From IMG/VR virus record IMGVR_UViG_3300010391_000145, positions 1 through 20,682 of that record: 20,682 nucleotides of DNA; one strand, given 5' to 3'. A program made the translations under genes and the position numbers. The notes beneath the pieces were generated by a model that made no database searches, had not been told where the DNA came from, and was given only the letters and a program-made list of their open reading frames with translations. Source of the stretch: a virus. This document shows, piece by piece, positions 10,108 through 19,732 of this stretch (position 1 is its first letter; the number at the start of each line of letters is the position of its first letter).

Positions 10108-11310
10108 ATGTCAAAAAAAGTAAATGTAGCAGTAAAGGAAATGGTGTTTTTGTCGATTGATGATTTAACTCCGTTTCAAGGCAAACTTAAAACTTTATCT
10201 GACGATAATTATGAAAAATTAAAGAACGAAATTATAGGCCATGATTTTTCCTTCGCAATTCATATATGGAAAAATGACAATAAACATTTGATACTCGACG
10301 GGCATCAACGCCTAGAAACATTAAAAAGAATGAAGGACGAAGGTTTTGAAATTCCAAAAATACCCGTCGCAATAGTGGAAGCAAAATCTTTAAAAGAAGC
10401 CAAACTCAAAGTCTTATCAGGAACCAGCCAATACGGGGAAATTACAAAAGATGGATTTATGGACTTTGTTCAAACAAATGATTTGGTATTCGATGATTTT
10501 GCAAACCTTAATTTTCCAGAAATTAATATCGATAATTTAAAGTTGGTTTTATTTCCAGACGAAGCAAAAGACGCAATCGAAGACGAAGTTCCAGAAGTTC
10601 CAAAAGAAACTTTTGTTAAACCCGGTGACATGTTTCAACTTGGGGAACACAGACTTCTTTGTGCCGATTGCACAGTTAAGGAAAATGTTGAAAGGTTAAT
10701 GGGAACAGAGAAAGCGGATATGGTTTTTACAGATCCTCCGTATGGGATAAATGTTTTAGGTTCAGACAATCAAATCGGAGCCGGGAAATGTCCAAAAAAA
10801 TATAGTCATATCGAAGGCGATTTAAAAGAATATAATCCATTATTTTGCATAAATTACGCGCCTCTTTCCTTTATATGGGGAGGAAATTATTTTGCACATT
10901 TACTTCCTAAGTCCACATCTTGGATTGTTTGGAATAAACATTCGGATATAAGCAAGGAAAGGGCAAATGATTTTAGTGATTGTGAACTAGCGTGGACAAA
11001 TTTTAATAAAACATCTGTTAGACTTTTTACTCATGCGTGGATTGGTTTTTTGAGACATGGTAATAAAAAAGATGAATGCGAAAAAAGACTTCATCCAACA
11101 CAAAAACCTGTTGGACTATTTGAAGAAATTTTCAAAGAATATGAATTTCCTAATAAAATTTTAGATTTATTCGGAGGTTCAGGCAGCACTTTAATTGCAT
11201 GTGAGAAGACAAACAGAAAATGTTTTATGAGTGAAATATCACCTGAGTATGTAGAAGTCATAATAAATCGTTGGGAAAAATATAGCGGAAAAAAGGCCGT
11301 AAAATTATGA
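10108..11310 (+). CDS. ParB-like domain fused to DNA adenine/N4-cytosine methyltransferase
   Basis: 400 residues. Residues 1-150 are ParB-like: LSIDDLTPFQGKLKTLSDDN, then LILDGHQRLETLKRM (61-75) around a GxxR box. Residues 170-400 are a beta-class amino methyltransferase: the catalytic TDPPYG (208-213), HPTQKPVGLFEEI (329-341) and the AdoMet-binding ILDLFGGSGSTLIA (351-364). It should transfer a methyl group from S-adenosylmethionine to an exocyclic amino group of A or C in a short target. No restriction enzyme accompanies it, so it is probably an orphan enzyme protecting phage DNA or altering host methylation. It begins with AAAGG upstream and is driven by operator copy 2. Its ATGA end overlaps a small zinc-finger ORF. 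A duplicate of its N-terminal half lies at 11493. Confidence 0.88.
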   Translation: MSKKVNVAVKEMVFLSIDDLTPFQGKLKTLSDDNYEKLKNEIIGHDFSFAIHIWKNDNKHLILDGHQRLETLKRMKDEGFEIPKIPVAIVEAKSLKEAKLKVLSGTSQYGEITKDGFMDFVQTNDLVFDDFANLNFPEINIDNLKLVLFPDEAKDAIEDEVPEVPKETFVKPGDMFQLGEHRLLCADCTVKENVERLMGTEKADMVFTDPPYGINVLGSDNQIGAGKCPKKYSHIEGDLKEYNPLFCINYAPLSFIWGGNYFAHLLPKSTSWIVWNKHSDISKERANDFSDCELAWTNFNKTSVRLFTHAWIGFLRHGNKKDECEKRLHPTQKPVGLFEEIFKEYEFPNKILDLFGGSGSTLIACEKTNRKCFMSEISPEYVEVIINRWEKYSGKKAVKL

Positions 11311-11492: not shown

Positions 11493-12037
11493 ATGATAGA
11501 AGATCAAAAAACTATATCTGTCCAATGTGAGGGAGCTCACCTTTTAGATATAGATGAAATTGAAATATTCCAAGGATCGTTGAAGTCACTTTCCGATCAG
11601 AATTACGAGAAACTTAAAAAATCAATTCTTGAGCTTGGTTTTTCCGCGCCGTTTTTTATTTGGGAAACGACAAACACAATTGGTTAATGGACGGTACTCA
11701 GAGAAAAGTTACCCTTCATAAAATGAGAGAAGAAGGATTAAAAATCCCTAAACTTCCTTGTGTCAAGATATTTGCAAAAAGCAAGAAAGAGGCGGCACAG
11801 AAACTTTTGGCCATAGTTTCTCAATTTGGAAAAGTTGGAAATGATGGCTTGCTACAATTTTCTAATACTTTTGATTTAAATCTTTTGGAAATTAGAAATA
11901 ATTTTGAACTTCCTGAAGTTAATTTTGATTATTTAATAATGCCAGAATCTGCAAATGGAAAGGAATTTACTGAAGATGTTGAATTTGAAGTTGTTTGGAA
12001 TGAATGCCCGAAATGTGGCAATAAATGGCCCAAGTAA
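11493..12037 (+). pseudogene. Second ParB-like protein, interrupted by a one-base frameshift
   Basis: The first segment (frame from ATG 11493, stopping near 11687) and the second (same strand, frame from about 11660 to 12037) together align with residues 10-150 of the ParB-methyltransferase. Matching pieces are FQGSLKSLSDQNYEKLKKSI, then LMDGTQRKVTLHKMREEG, then LPEVNFD. Joining after Trp57 (TGG, 11661-11663) with a -1 shift restores the paralog spacing exactly and gives about 181 residues. One G is probably missing from the GGG at 11662-11664. Unlike its paralog it has no methyltransferase domain and ends in a zinc knuckle, NECPKCGNKWPK. It overlaps the next gene, a C5 methyltransferase, by 13 bases. 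The break may be a real mutation, an assembly error or, less likely, recoding. In the GxxR box His is replaced by Thr. Confidence 0.75.
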
Positions 12038-16084: not shown

Positions 16085-16975
16085 ATGAACCCAATTTTAC
16101 CCCAAAAATTCGATGCCGAATTGTTACCAAAAATCATGGCCGGGGAATTCGTCGGGATGGTTGAAGGAATGTCGTTTGAAGATTATAAAAAGGTTCCTGC
16201 AATTAATCAATCTTCCCTTAAGGAGCTTTATTTTAAAAGCCCTAGACATTATGAGGCCAGCAAAAATGAGGAAGATGAAGAAGAATCAGATGCTTTAAAA
16301 ATTGGACGCGCTGTACATGCTGCTATTTTGGAACCTGATAGTTTTCGTGAAAAATATTGCATTAGTAGACCCGGCTTAAAATTAAATAGAAAAGCTGATA
16401 AGGATGAATATCTTGGAGTTATCGCCAACAATCCTGGCAAAGAAATAATCCGAGGAGAATTATTTGAGGCCATAAAATTAATGTCAATTGCATTGGCAAG
16501 AAAACCTATCATTTCACAATTATTACAAAATGGGATTGCTGAAGTGTCTTTATTTTGGATTGATTCGGCCACGACTTTACCCTGTAAAGGGAGGGTAGAT
16601 TATTACCTTCCTCAATTTTCAATCATGGTAGATTTAAAAACTTCGATTTCGGCGGGGGCAGAAGATTTCCAAAATTCTTTATTGCGATATCGCTATTACT
16701 GGCAGCCTTTCTGGTATATGTCTGGGTTCAAACATATTTTCAATATTGAGATAGAAAGTTTTGTTTTCCTGGTTATAGAGAAAAAAATACCCTTTGAAAA
16801 TTCTGCATTCAGGATAGATTTTGAAACGATTGAGATGGGAAAACAAGAATGTGGTGAAGCTATTAAAAAATATCTCGATTGTAAAATCAAAGGCGAATTT
16901 TCAGGTTATGTTGATGCCGTGCAGGATCTTCGACTTAAAGACTGGTATTTAAAAAGATTGAAATATGAAACATAA
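16085..16975 (+). CDS. RecE-type PD-(D/E)XK exonuclease
   Basis: 296 residues after AAAAAGGAG. The nuclease core reads ALKIGRAVHAAIL (70-82, His78), AEVSLFW (152-158, Glu153), CKGRVDYY (167-174, Asp172) and MVDLKTS (181-187, Asp183 and Lys185), followed by YYWQPFWYMSGF (204-215). This is the order of the RecB/RecE family (exonuclease VIII C-terminal domain). These enzymes resect one DNA strand for single-strand annealing. The next genes are an AlpA-like regulator and a putative annealing protein, giving the expected exonuclease/annealer pair. Length suits a stand-alone RecE catalytic domain. Confidence 0.85.
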   Translation: MNPILPQKFDAELLPKIMAGEFVGMVEGMSFEDYKKVPAINQSSLKELYFKSPRHYEASKNEEDEEESDALKIGRAVHAAILEPDSFREKYCISRPGLKLNRKADKDEYLGVIANNPGKEIIRGELFEAIKLMSIALARKPIISQLLQNGIAEVSLFWIDSATTLPCKGRVDYYLPQFSIMVDLKTSISAGAEDFQNSLLRYRYYWQPFWYMSGFKHIFNIEIESFVFLVIEKKIPFENSAFRIDFETIEMGKQECGEAIKKYLDCKIKGEFSGYVDAVQDLRLKDWYLKRLKYET

Positions 16976-16988
16976 AAGGAGGTTTTTA

Positions 16989-17186
16989 ATGAGTGATTTA
17001 GAAATTCTAAGATTACCCCAGGTATCTGAAAAAACAAAACTTAGTATCCCAACAATCCGTAAAAAGATTGATGATGGTACGTTCCCGCGCCCTGTAGAAT
17101 TGTCTAATAGAGCGATAGGATGGACTAATGAAACGATAGAAGCGTGGATTAATAATTTACCAATAAAGGAGTCAAAAAATGAGTAA
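16989..17186 (+). CDS. AlpA-like winged-HTH regulator/excisionase
   Basis: 65 residues from ATG 16989, chosen because AAAAGGAGG lies about seven bases upstream; an in-frame ATG at 16965 would overlap the exonuclease and lacks a site. The sequence LRLPQVSEKTKLSIPTIRKKIDDGTFPRP followed by GWTNETIEAWI (quoted in pieces; 7-55) is the AlpA/MerR-like excisionase pattern: an HTH, F-P-R/K-P, then W at the second helix. Family members regulate prophage genes or act in excision. Here it is embedded between two recombination genes and overlaps the next start by 8 bases. Confidence 0.85.
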   Translation: MSDLEILRLPQVSEKTKLSIPTIRKKIDDGTFPRPVELSNRAIGWTNETIEAWINNLPIKESKNE

Positions 17187-18042
17187 CGAATTAGTTAAAG
17201 AAGAAATGGGATTAGTAGAAAGTGTTCAAGGCCGCGAAGACCAGAGTTTAGAATCTGCGAAAGTAACTGCCCAGGTTCAGGCTGCTTTAGTAATTGCAAA
17301 GAAATTTCCGCGCAATGAATTAGCCGCCCACACTAGAATAATTGATGCTTGTAAACGTTATCCATTGGCCGAACAATCAATGTACGCTTATAACCGTGGA
17401 AGCCAGCAAATAACAGGCCCTTCAATACGTTTAGCGGAAACATTATGTAAGAATTATGGAAATATATCGACCTGGAGTGATGAGGTAGAACAGGGTGAAG
17501 ATTTTTCAAAAATTAATGTTGGTGCCTGGGATCTTGAAACAAACTATATTGATTCAAAAACCGTTCACGTTCCACATTACCGAGATACTCGCGAGGGTAA
17601 GAAAAGGTTGACCGATGGCCGCGACGTTTACGAACATGTCGCAAATATGGCATCCCGCAGAAAACGGGTTTGTATGATTAACGTTATTCCTAAGGACTTG
17701 GTTGATGCCGCGATAGATCAATGCGAAAAAACCTTTGCCGATGGCCCGGAAAAAAACAAACTTCCTTTAATCGACCGTATAAAAAATATGCTGGTTGGTT
17801 TTAAGGAGTTTGGAATTACCCAGGAAATGATTGAAACCCGGGTGGGTCATAAAGCGGATGCTATAGCGCAGGCCGAATTTGTTGCCTTATATAAGATTTA
17901 CCAGTCAATTAAGGATGGCGTTTCATCAAGGGAGCAATGGTTTGAAACGGGGGCCAAAAAATCTGAGGATTTAACCGAAAAACTCAAGAATTCAGGCAAA
18001 TCAGAAAAGAAGGAAAAGGTTAATGATCTTAATGGTATATAG
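17179..18042 (+). CDS. Conserved phage protein, probable single-strand annealing partner of the exonuclease
   Basis: 287 residues after AAAGGAG. The conserved N-terminal half has VTAQVQAALVIAKKFPRN (29-46), CKRYPLAEQSMYAYNRG (58-74) and ITGPSIRLAETLCKNYGN (78-95). Later come NMASRRKRVCMINVIP and LVDAAIDQCEKT. Proteins with this pattern recur in phages near RecE/lambda-type exonucleases, and the GPSIRLAE-x-L-x-x-x-x-GN motif resembles ERF-like annealing proteins. I infer a role in pairing complementary single strands next to the exonuclease at 16085. The C-terminal 40 residues are Lys/Glu rich and likely flexible. Biochemical function is not proven by sequence. Confidence 0.6.
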   Translation: MSNELVKEEMGLVESVQGREDQSLESAKVTAQVQAALVIAKKFPRNELAAHTRIIDACKRYPLAEQSMYAYNRGSQQITGPSIRLAETLCKNYGNISTWSDEVEQGEDFSKINVGAWDLETNYIDSKTVHVPHYRDTREGKKRLTDGRDVYEHVANMASRRKRVCMINVIPKDLVDAAIDQCEKTFADGPEKNKLPLIDRIKNMLVGFKEFGITQEMIETRVGHKADAIAQAEFVALYKIYQSIKDGVSSREQWFETGAKKSEDLTEKLKNSGKSEKKEKVNDLNGI

Positions 18043-18088: not shown

Positions 18089-18227
18089 GGATTAAATAAT
18101 CCGGTGCGAGGCCATTTAAATTGAAAATAAGTTAAAGATAGTTTATTTTGTAAAAAAGGCTTTTGCTGTCTTTTAAAGTTATGCCTCTTACCGGATTCAT
18201 AACCCATCGATTTGCAGAAGCCTTTTT
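18089..18227 (+). ncRNA. Candidate structured RNA with two interleaved long stems
   Basis: In the 207-base gene-free spacer 18043-18249, stem P1 pairs 18098-18112 with 18183-18197. It joins AATCCGGT to ACCGGATT, then one G-U, one mismatch, and GAGGC to GCCTC. Stem P2 pairs 18153-18166 with 18214-18227 (AAAAAGGCTTTTGC with GCAGAAGCCTTTTT, 14 positions, one G-U). The 5' arm of P2 lies in the loop of P1 and the 3' arm of P1 lies in the loop of P2, which defines a pseudoknot or two alternative folds. An inner hairpin pairs 18124-18130 with 18143-18149, and GGATTA/TAATCC at 18089-18102 competes with P1. P2 ends in a T-run about 15 bases before the initiator ribosome binding site, like a terminator or expression platform. 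No known class recognised. Confidence 0.5.
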
Positions 18228-18249: not shown

Positions 18250-19170
18250 ATGCCTAGAGTTAATGTTGAAGAAAAATGTTTTGATACGGATTTACCCATG
18301 ATTAGTGCTTTAACTGGATGGGATCAGCATTTTTGTTTGGGTTGTTTATGTTTCCTTTGGCACACATCTCAAAAATTTGATTGTGAAAAGGCCAATAAGG
18401 AAGAAATTAAAAAATGGACTAAATTATTTGATAATAAAAAGACAGATATTTTTATTAAATCTGGTTTGGAAAGTGGGTTTTTGGAACCCATTAATGATGA
18501 AATTTTCTACATTAAAGGAAATCGAGAGCAGCTTTCTTGGAAAAAATACCGTTCTAAGCAATGTTCAGAGGCTGGAAAAAAAGGCATGGAAAAACGGTGG
18601 GGTAAGTATAACGAACCCATAACGGACGATAACGGAGTTATAACGGGGATAACCTCAAGTACAAGTACAAGTACAAGTACAAGTACAAGAACAAATAATA
18701 AAGATATATCTTCTTGCAAAATTGATAACGAACTTATAACGGACGTTATGGTTCCTTCGGATAAACCGAAGGGAAGGGAAATTAAAAAACCTAAAAAAGA
18801 AATCATAATTTCTGACTCTGAAAAATTGCTTGCTCAGAAATGGTTTGAATACGCATTAAGTTTAACTCCAAATGGTAAGTTTAAAATCGATTCATTTCAA
18901 AGCGACATAGTAAAAGCAAAAAAAGAAATAAAATTAAATGACAAGGGAATGGATGAAATATTTGAGGTAATGAAGACCGATAATTTTTGGAAGGATAAAA
19001 TTAGAACTCCAAAAGCCCTTTTAAAAGAATGCTCGGATGGACTTAGAAAAATCGATCATCTTATCGACGTACTTAAAAGAACAAAATATAAAACCAGTCC
19101 AATTAACGACTGGGCAAAAAACAAAACTGAAGAGCTCGAAAGGGAGGGAATAACTTTTGACAAACCTTAA
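18250..19170 (+). CDS. Phage replication initiator-like protein
   Basis: 306 residues after AACGGAG. Residues 1-115 look like a winged-helix N-domain, ending in KKYRSKQCSEAGKKGMEKRWGKY, the SEAGKKG-x-x-x-RWG linker pattern (quoted in part) typical of phage O/DnaD-like replication proteins. A low-complexity linker (118-165) with a Ser-Thr repeat (136-146) follows, then a helical C-domain that should contact the helicase loader or helicase. The linker DNA carries phased ATAACGG repeats, as the lambda origin lies inside gene O. The next gene, starting with a TTG inside this gene's end, resembles a helicase loader. A structured RNA region lies upstream. Role as origin-binding initiator is inferred from organisation and layout. 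Confidence 0.7.
   Translation: MPRVNVEEKCFDTDLPMISALTGWDQHFCLGCLCFLWHTSQKFDCEKANKEEIKKWTKLFDNKKTDIFIKSGLESGFLEPINDEIFYIKGNREQLSWKKYRSKQCSEAGKKGMEKRWGKYNEPITDDNGVITGITSSTSTSTSTSTRTNNKDISSCKIDNELITDVMVPSDKPKGREIKKPKKEIIISDSEKLLAQKWFEYALSLTPNGKFKIDSFQSDIVKAKKEIKLNDKGMDEIFEVMKTDNFWKDKIRTPKALLKECSDGLRKIDHLIDVLKRTKYKTSPINDWAKNKTEELEREGITFDKP
18608..18749 (+). other. Iteron cluster inside the initiator gene, candidate replication origin
   Basis: Copies of ATAACG(G/A) begin at 18608, 18619, 18629, 18640, with a partial ATAACC at 18649, then at 18725 and 18736, and in inverted orientation (CGTTAT) at 18744-18749. Steps within each cluster are 9-11 bases, one helical turn. Copies at 18619, 18640 and 18736 are read as Ile-Thr; those at 18608, 18629 and 18725 are in another frame (Tyr/Asp-Asn). 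Conservation across two frames points to selection on DNA. The last pair forms ATAACGGACGTTAT, a perfect inverted repeat. The two clusters are separated by the AGTACA repeat and an AT-rich stretch (18691-18722). Confidence 0.6.
18658..18687 (+). repeat. Five tandem AGTACA hexamers encoding Ser-Thr repeats
   Basis: AGTACA occurs five times in perfect tandem, with a degenerate sixth unit (AGAACA) at 18688-18693. It encodes alternating Ser-Thr in the initiator linker. Six-base units keep the frame, so slippage would change only linker length and the spacing between the two ATAACGG clusters. Confidence 0.9.
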
Positions 19171-19732
19171 TCCAAAGATTTTTTCAAAATTCATAAAGGC
19201 ACTTTCCAAATCTATTCCAAAATGGTCGCCGGATTTTAATGATGAAGAAACAATGGATGCCTGGTATTTGCATTTTAAAAACATAACTGTTGAACAGTTG
19301 GAAGTTATTTTCAGAAAGGCACCAGTTACCTTCGATGAATTTCCTTCTCTTAGAATGCTTTTAAAATTGACAGGAGAACACTCATTCGACGGAGATTCAG
19401 ACCCTAGGGACGCAGCATCAAGGATTATCAGCGCCGTTTCAAAATACGGGTATAATAATGTCAACGAAGCAAAGGAATATATCGGCGAACTTGGTTGGGA
19501 AACGATGAAACGATATGCTGGATCTTGGAGTAATTTTTGTGATTTTTTAAATTCAGAAAATATATCCGCTATTCAAGCCCAACTAAGGGAACTTTGTAAA
19601 ACAGTGGGAAACAAATTGGAGCGCGGAGAAATATCACCACCAGGATTACCGTCACCTGAAAAATCATATGTTGGAAAAATACTTGCCGGTCTATGCAATT
19701 CGACAAAACAATTGATTGGAAAGAAGAAATAA
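19157..19732 (+). CDS. Helicase-loader-like replication protein
   Basis: 191 residues from a TTG start at 19157, supported by GGGAGGGA seven bases upstream; it overlaps the initiator's 3' end by 14 bases. Residues 20-72 (IPKWSPDFNDEETMDAWYLH, then EFPSLRMLLKLTG) match the layout of phage helicase loaders such as SPP1 G39P and lambda P-like proteins: an N-terminal helix bundle with a W near 36 and an FPS/P-x-x-x-L-L end. Residues 90-130 add a helix with GWETMKRYAGSWSNF, often seen after it. It would bring the host replicative helicase to the initiator at the origin. Similarity is by pattern and position. Confidence 0.55.
   Translation: MTNLNPKIFSKFIKALSKSIPKWSPDFNDEETMDAWYLHFKNITVEQLEVIFRKAPVTFDEFPSLRMLLKLTGEHSFDGDSDPRDAASRIISAVSKYGYNNVNEAKEYIGELGWETMKRYAGSWSNFCDFLNSENISAIQAQLRELCKTVGNKLERGEISPPGLPSPEKSYVGKILAGLCNSTKQLIGKKK

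Follow-up and report, generated by a model that had tools for sequence, protein, structure and literature searches.

Where does a phage of this kind start to replicate its DNA, and which part of its initiator recognizes the site? This question is raised by a cluster of short repeats inside one gene of IMG/VR record IMGVR_UViG_3300010391_000145, of which positions 1 to 20,682 (20,682 nucleotides, denoted here as the window) were analysed. To our knowledge, replication origins are unknown for most phages. In lambda, the origin iterons sit inside gene O, and an initial annotation of the window placed an origin in the same manner, built of ATAACGG repeats and read by the N-terminal domain of the encoded protein. 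The helical phasing of the repeats and their place in the stretch that encodes the linker of a probable initiator, an architecture like that of lambda O, SPP1 gene 38, and pSK41 rep, were upheld; the N-domain as reader and ATAACGG as the word were not. From the patterns described below, the array is probably a binding-site cluster, and a likely origin, of the encoded protein; the peptide AGKKGMEKRW would read the repeats, and its sixth residue would set the word.

The ATAAC array and its gene

Within 142 bases (18608-18749), ATAAC or its inverted form GTTAT occurs nine times, in the two clusters given in Table 1. All seven direct elements reported before are present. They follow each other in steps of 11, 10, 11, 9, then 76, then 11 bases, in agreement with the two clusters of 9-11 base steps described initially. 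A single inverted copy had been noted; two are found, the first of which overlaps the next direct copy to form GTTATAAC. The first repeat begins seven bases 3' of the AGKKGMEKRW codons. The longer word ATAACGG is seen in four of the direct copies (18619, 18629, 18640, and 18736) and was rejected as the repeat unit: relatives have only ATAAC in common, mostly as ATAACA, and the GG is private to the window phage. Since the relatives conserve ATAAC and not GG, ATAAC is regarded as the core word.

Table 1. Positions of the initiator gene, its repeats, and its neighbours in the window
Feature	Position	Strand	Basis or details
Exonuclease VIII-like gene, before the gene at 17179..18042	16085-16975		
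Upstream gene, function unknown	17179..18042	+	PHROG (phrog_3657 match)
Probable replication initiator gene, 306 aa	18250..19170	+	ORF; probable role from a module common to annotated replication initiation proteins
AGKKGMEKRW, proposed iteron-reading element	18571..18600	+	Key residue M, codon 18586-18588
First iteron cluster	18608..18653	+	ATAAC at 18608, 18619, 18629, 18640, 18649; inverted GTTAT 18637-18641
6-base tandem tract	18656..18694	+	CAAGTA x 6.5, encodes STSTST; between the two iteron clusters
Second iteron cluster	18725..18749	+	ATAAC at 18725, 18736; inverted GTTAT 18745-18749 (ATAACGGACGTTAT)
Next gene, 191 aa, overlaps end of initiator gene	19157..19732	+	Weak PHROG match only (phrog_243, E 0.018)

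Such repeats might be a by-product of a low-complexity linker (of the ITxDN type) without any role as DNA, and the linkers are indeed also repetitive as protein (e.g. STSTST, VNVNVN). However, permutation of synonymous codons within the gene yields a mean of 3.6 sites per 142 nt compared with the 9 observed (P 1.5e-4), and drawing them from the codon usage of the window yields 3.3 (P 1e-4). When all codons are permuted, the mean is 1.3, and none of 20,000 permutations (0/20,000) reaches nine; the densest spot elsewhere in the window holds 3 ATAAC/GTTAT per 142 nt. Chance and codon bias as the source of the repeats are ruled out by these controls (P ~1e-4). A lack of excess over codon-shuffled sequences had been set beforehand as refuting the origin; the excess persists, and one protein family even has its repeats outside the gene. 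The use of two reading frames, also stated initially, was confirmed; both frames open to the repeat are occupied, the third being closed because TAA would fall in frame. Moreover, the repeat classes introduced below encode different peptides (ITxDN, IAxDS, IAxDR), which likewise speaks against a linker artefact.

The window protein consists of an N-domain, AGKKGMEKRW, a Ser/Thr-rich linker, and a C-terminal domain. It has no significant match in Pfam, NCBIfam, or PHROG, and no close homologues beyond the motif region in IMG/VR and phage records. Pfam gave no match to the Lin1244/Lin1753-like N-terminal domain (PF14297), to which the N-domain without the motif aligned at 0.1% in hhalign. The N-domain and C-domain together matched none of PF14297, PF19808 (DUF6291), and PF07120 (DUF1376), and the protein did not match the C-terminal DnaD domain (DnaD/DnaB_2, PF07261). 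The AlphaFold model is of too low confidence for use (pLDDT 35). To judge from their matches, the genes 5' of the initiator gene form a recombination/replication neighbourhood. In relatives, a helicase loader or a helicase is often encoded at the place of the gene at 19157..19732.

Between the clusters, A+T-rich DNA continues from the CAAGTA tract to about 18724, with 72% A+T in 18654-18724 versus 64% for the window. By composition and position, this stretch is a candidate unwinding element. A 6-base tandem tract also lies 3' of the array in most relatives (loci L408-L487, L065, L070, and L073); within genes it encodes SVSVSV, NVNVND, or ESKVKE, a noncoding version reads CTTCAC, and it may serve as an unwinding element there. 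GC skew is positive throughout the window without a switch and is uninformative with genes nearly all on one strand.

A motif residue and its repeat word

A protein search of IMG/VR led to 18 loci whose similarity is centred on the motif. Despite different N- and C-terminal domains, all have the motif followed by ATAAC/GTTAT repeats; the motif was expected because KKGMEKRW was a search seed, the repeats were not, and the tblastn confirmation of this set may have favoured similar linkers. A peptide scan of IMG/VR for AGKKGxxxRW, with no iteron in the query and residue 6 left free, returned at least 119 stretches. Among the matches listed, sequences with M at residue 6 contain ATAAC 235 times (29 expected) and in 41 of 41 cases, the A class shows ATGGC and ATAGC, and the N class shows ATCGC. 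The window agrees with the pattern of the M group, with M as residue 6 and at least three ATAAC within 200 nt downstream.

A second scan (AGRKGxxxRW) was added and redundant linkers were removed. The pairing of M with ATAAC, A with ATRGC, and N with ATCGC then holds for 62 of the 66 callable cases of both scans among the matches listed, and the best agreement in 100,000 label permutations of these was 43. The exceptions among the listed matches are three A-class sequences with ATCGC and one N with ATRGC, and about a quarter of the A class is without a callable array; part of both are short or spurious frames. Compared with synonymous redraws, the totals among the matches listed are 244 versus 127 (M), 203 versus 89 (A, both words), and 50 versus 18 (N), where the M total takes in loci from ATAAC-related searches that the set of 66 leaves out.

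The correspondence is also seen from the DNA side. A DNA-only scan for GATAAC-N3-GTTATAAC-N4-GATAAC returned at least 31 stretches; the array expectations for A and N were fixed before their DNA-only scans and after the M result. Where a motif lies within 900 bp of a nonredundant array, ATAAC goes with M in 26/26, ATRGC with A in 51/51, and ATCGC with N in 28/29 of the matches listed. These counts are inflated by related phages that enter several times, since merging required identity over about 110 nt. No recognisable motif was seen near 2 ATAAC arrays, 33/84 ATRGC arrays, and 44/73 ATCGC arrays (among the matches listed). Some of these arrays are close to the end of a contig or locus, and others probably reflect chance in G+C-rich DNA or other motif variants. 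Elsewhere in the same loci, the motif occurs 3 times in about 1.3 Mb. An AGKKGM scan of bacterial genomes found at least three ATAAC in 18 of the 29 matches listed, the remainder being mostly spurious frames, and a scan for GRKGGRP gave a weaker signal and different repeats.

Direct repeats of the M class are spaced 9-11 bp apart and inverted pairs 8-9 bp, in addition to the overlapping GTTATAAC, which fits protein units on one helix face. In the open-access literature, the motif and the one-residue correspondence were not found described, which is weak evidence of absence; the same literature held no relevant paper for AGKKG, nothing relevant for the KGG motif, and no paper on replication for DUF4373/DUF6291/Lin1244.

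Exchange between backbones and arrays outside genes

Members of the peptide-scan set match PF14297, PF19808, and PF07120 in Pfam. Clustered by N-terminal region, the set forms four large groups among the matches listed; three of them contain M, A, and N, all with matching iterons, and in the DUF1376-like group A and N match their iterons and the M members are without an array. One family was collected by its DUF6291 N-terminus and IYRSFAHLS C-terminus. It harbors five motif types with one word each: AGKxGM with ATAAC, AGKxGA with ATRGC, and, in further loci (L430, L454, and L484), AGKKSA with CGTTAACG, ENAxKRW with ACCGCA, and KGGRP with AACCCA. All 21 M members contain ATAAC at least twice, which no A member does; ATAGC is present in 28 of the 31 A members, and no M member has it. 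On a tree of the backbone without motif and linker, at least 11 cassette changes are required, the minimum for the types being 4, although recombination inside the backbone may distort this count. In a matched pair (L408 with M, L416 with A), the motif and every iteron differ and the rest is closely similar. Throughout, linkers diverge freely, iterons excepted. Motif and array together fit into about 150 bp, so that a single recombination event can swap specificity and putative origin. Lambdoid phages exchange the type specificity of the O protein along with ori. The AlphaFold model of the DUF6291 family, built without DNA and of moderate confidence, shows a long helix that carries the motif at its end and has no fold match in the PDB.

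In a DUF1376 family, AGKKGAxxRW forms the very C-terminus of the protein, with no linker after it. Twelve contigs of this family carry an ATRGC cluster (4-8 sites) in the region about 85-230 bp before the start codon; a C/T hexamer tract is present there in most of them, and these upstream regions have no commonly open frame. Pelagibacter phage Baldr encodes an AGKLGAKKRW protein and carries an ATRGC cluster between annotated genes (L696:288-337). The motif-iteron correspondence thus holds across backbones, within one family, and with noncoding arrays. Arrays in noncoding DNA mean that the repeats are DNA elements and not linker artefacts; the low-complexity linker was rejected on this ground and has only the slightest probability.

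Recognition might be exerted by the N-terminal domain in the style of lambda O, the motif being merely a passenger that recombines in one block with the array. The motif adjoins the array, and co-transfer by itself would link the two; furthermore, pSK41 Rep uses its N-terminal domain to bind its internal Rep boxes. Yet the same motif residue accompanies the same iteron despite unrelated N-domains, and on one backbone the N-domain stays nearly constant while motif and iterons switch together. The free divergence of the linkers around the iterons, and the persistence of the link where the array is upstream of the gene and the motif at the protein C-terminus, also count against it. The N-domain as reader, as proposed initially, is thus disfavoured: N-domains are wholly different among phages with the same ATAAC array, AGKKGMxxRW is constant, and residue 6 tracks the iteron. 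It is considered improbable.

A probable replication origin inside the initiator gene

Relatives with motif and array are annotated as replication initiation proteins, or contain DnaD-type domains, or have helicase-loader, helicase, or primase genes as neighbours, several of these neighbours coming from phages with other motif variants. The named phages EF62phi, LBR48, and JNU_P2 fit the motif-iteron correspondence, and their proteins are annotated as replication initiators, with a DnaD domain match in EF62phi, a phage of the A class. Few cultured DUF6291/DUF1376 phages test the M/A/N code because they mainly carry other motif variants.

The array could instead be an operator, at which the protein binds its own gene for transcription control and not for replication start. 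Binding by itself would account for the code, and in the DUF1376 family the array is situated just 5' of the gene, near promoter-like TTGACA sequences. In most families, however, it lies inside the gene and far from the start, which is unusual for an operator, whereas origins within initiator genes normally have such a position (lambda, SPP1, pSK41). The hexamer tract following the array and the neighbouring helicase loader, helicase, and primase genes also favour replication, and an operator seems unlikely. An origin in the window is a plausible reading.

For SPP1 gene 38 and pSK41 rep, it is established that the initiator gene carries the origin (PMC6316719, PMC5703833). Iteron origins of this kind are accordingly known already; the motif and the residue correspondence, a strong code, would be the new part. 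SPP1 gp38 is an origin-binding protein with direct repeats in its own gene, a placement also seen in the window, and acts together with the helicase loader gp39; a recognition code is not described there (PMC6316719). In pSK41 rep, the Rep boxes are central in the gene, and the linker that they encode can be dispensed with at the protein level (PMC5703833). These boxes are read by a RepA_N domain, for which the window protein has no Pfam match. Lambda shares with the window the iterons inside the initiator gene; it also has an A+T-rich unwinding region beside them and a helicase loader gene after the initiator gene, to which the candidate tract and the next gene of the window may correspond. 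Its iterons are four 19-bp units (PMC3985674), whereas the unit in the window has about 5-6 bp, a spacing of 9-11 bp, and a short motif beside it, one residue of which tracks the unit. No sequence similarity between lambda O and the window protein was detected, and searches of Pfam, NCBIfam, and PDB sequences gave no significant match to the lambda O family. Phage proteins with PF14297, PF19808, or PF07120, some with DnaD-type C-termini, have AG(K/R)xGxxxRW and a matching array in common with the window.

There is a fair likelihood that AG(K/R)xG-X-xxRW, ten residues long, is an undescribed, sequence-specific DNA-recognition element with a one-residue code, exchanged together with the origin as a cassette on many unrelated backbones, and that AGKKSA, ENAxKRW, and KGGRP act likewise with other words. 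That the protein binds the array, opens the DNA, and recruits the helicase, and that replication starts at this site, is inferred from sequence patterns; the steps might be as follows. The initiator would read the array via the short basic AGKKGMEKRW, situated where its N-terminal domain ends, residue 6 picking the site (M for ATAAC, A for AT(A/G)GC, N for ATCGC). With the sites spaced by one helical turn, the bound initiator copies would line up along one DNA face and melt the adjacent A+T-rich hexamer tract. The helicase would then be brought in through the initiator C-terminal domain and the product of the next gene.

If the code holds, the sequences of many uncharacterised phages and prophages would reveal origin and initiator specificity, also for gene families named only DUF1376, DUF4373/Lin1244, or DUF6291. 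The element would be an unusually small, decodable protein-DNA recognition unit, and natural specificity switches in the form of matched pairs would be usable for the study of initiator-origin co-evolution.

Further repeats and frames were observed in the window. The gap 5' of the initiator gene contains a 14-base inverted repeat (18153-18166 and 18214-18227; AAAAAGGCTTTTGC and, on the other strand, AAAAAGGCTTCTGC), whose two matches arose in 0/100 shuffles. A 42-base tandem repeat of 2.3 copies (2260-2357) lies within the gene at 1682-2515. Finally, the overlapping ORFs 11493-11687 and 11660-12037 resemble, by eye, one ParB-N-like domain broken by a frameshift, for which an intact paralogue within the methylase gene 10108-11310 serves as comparison.
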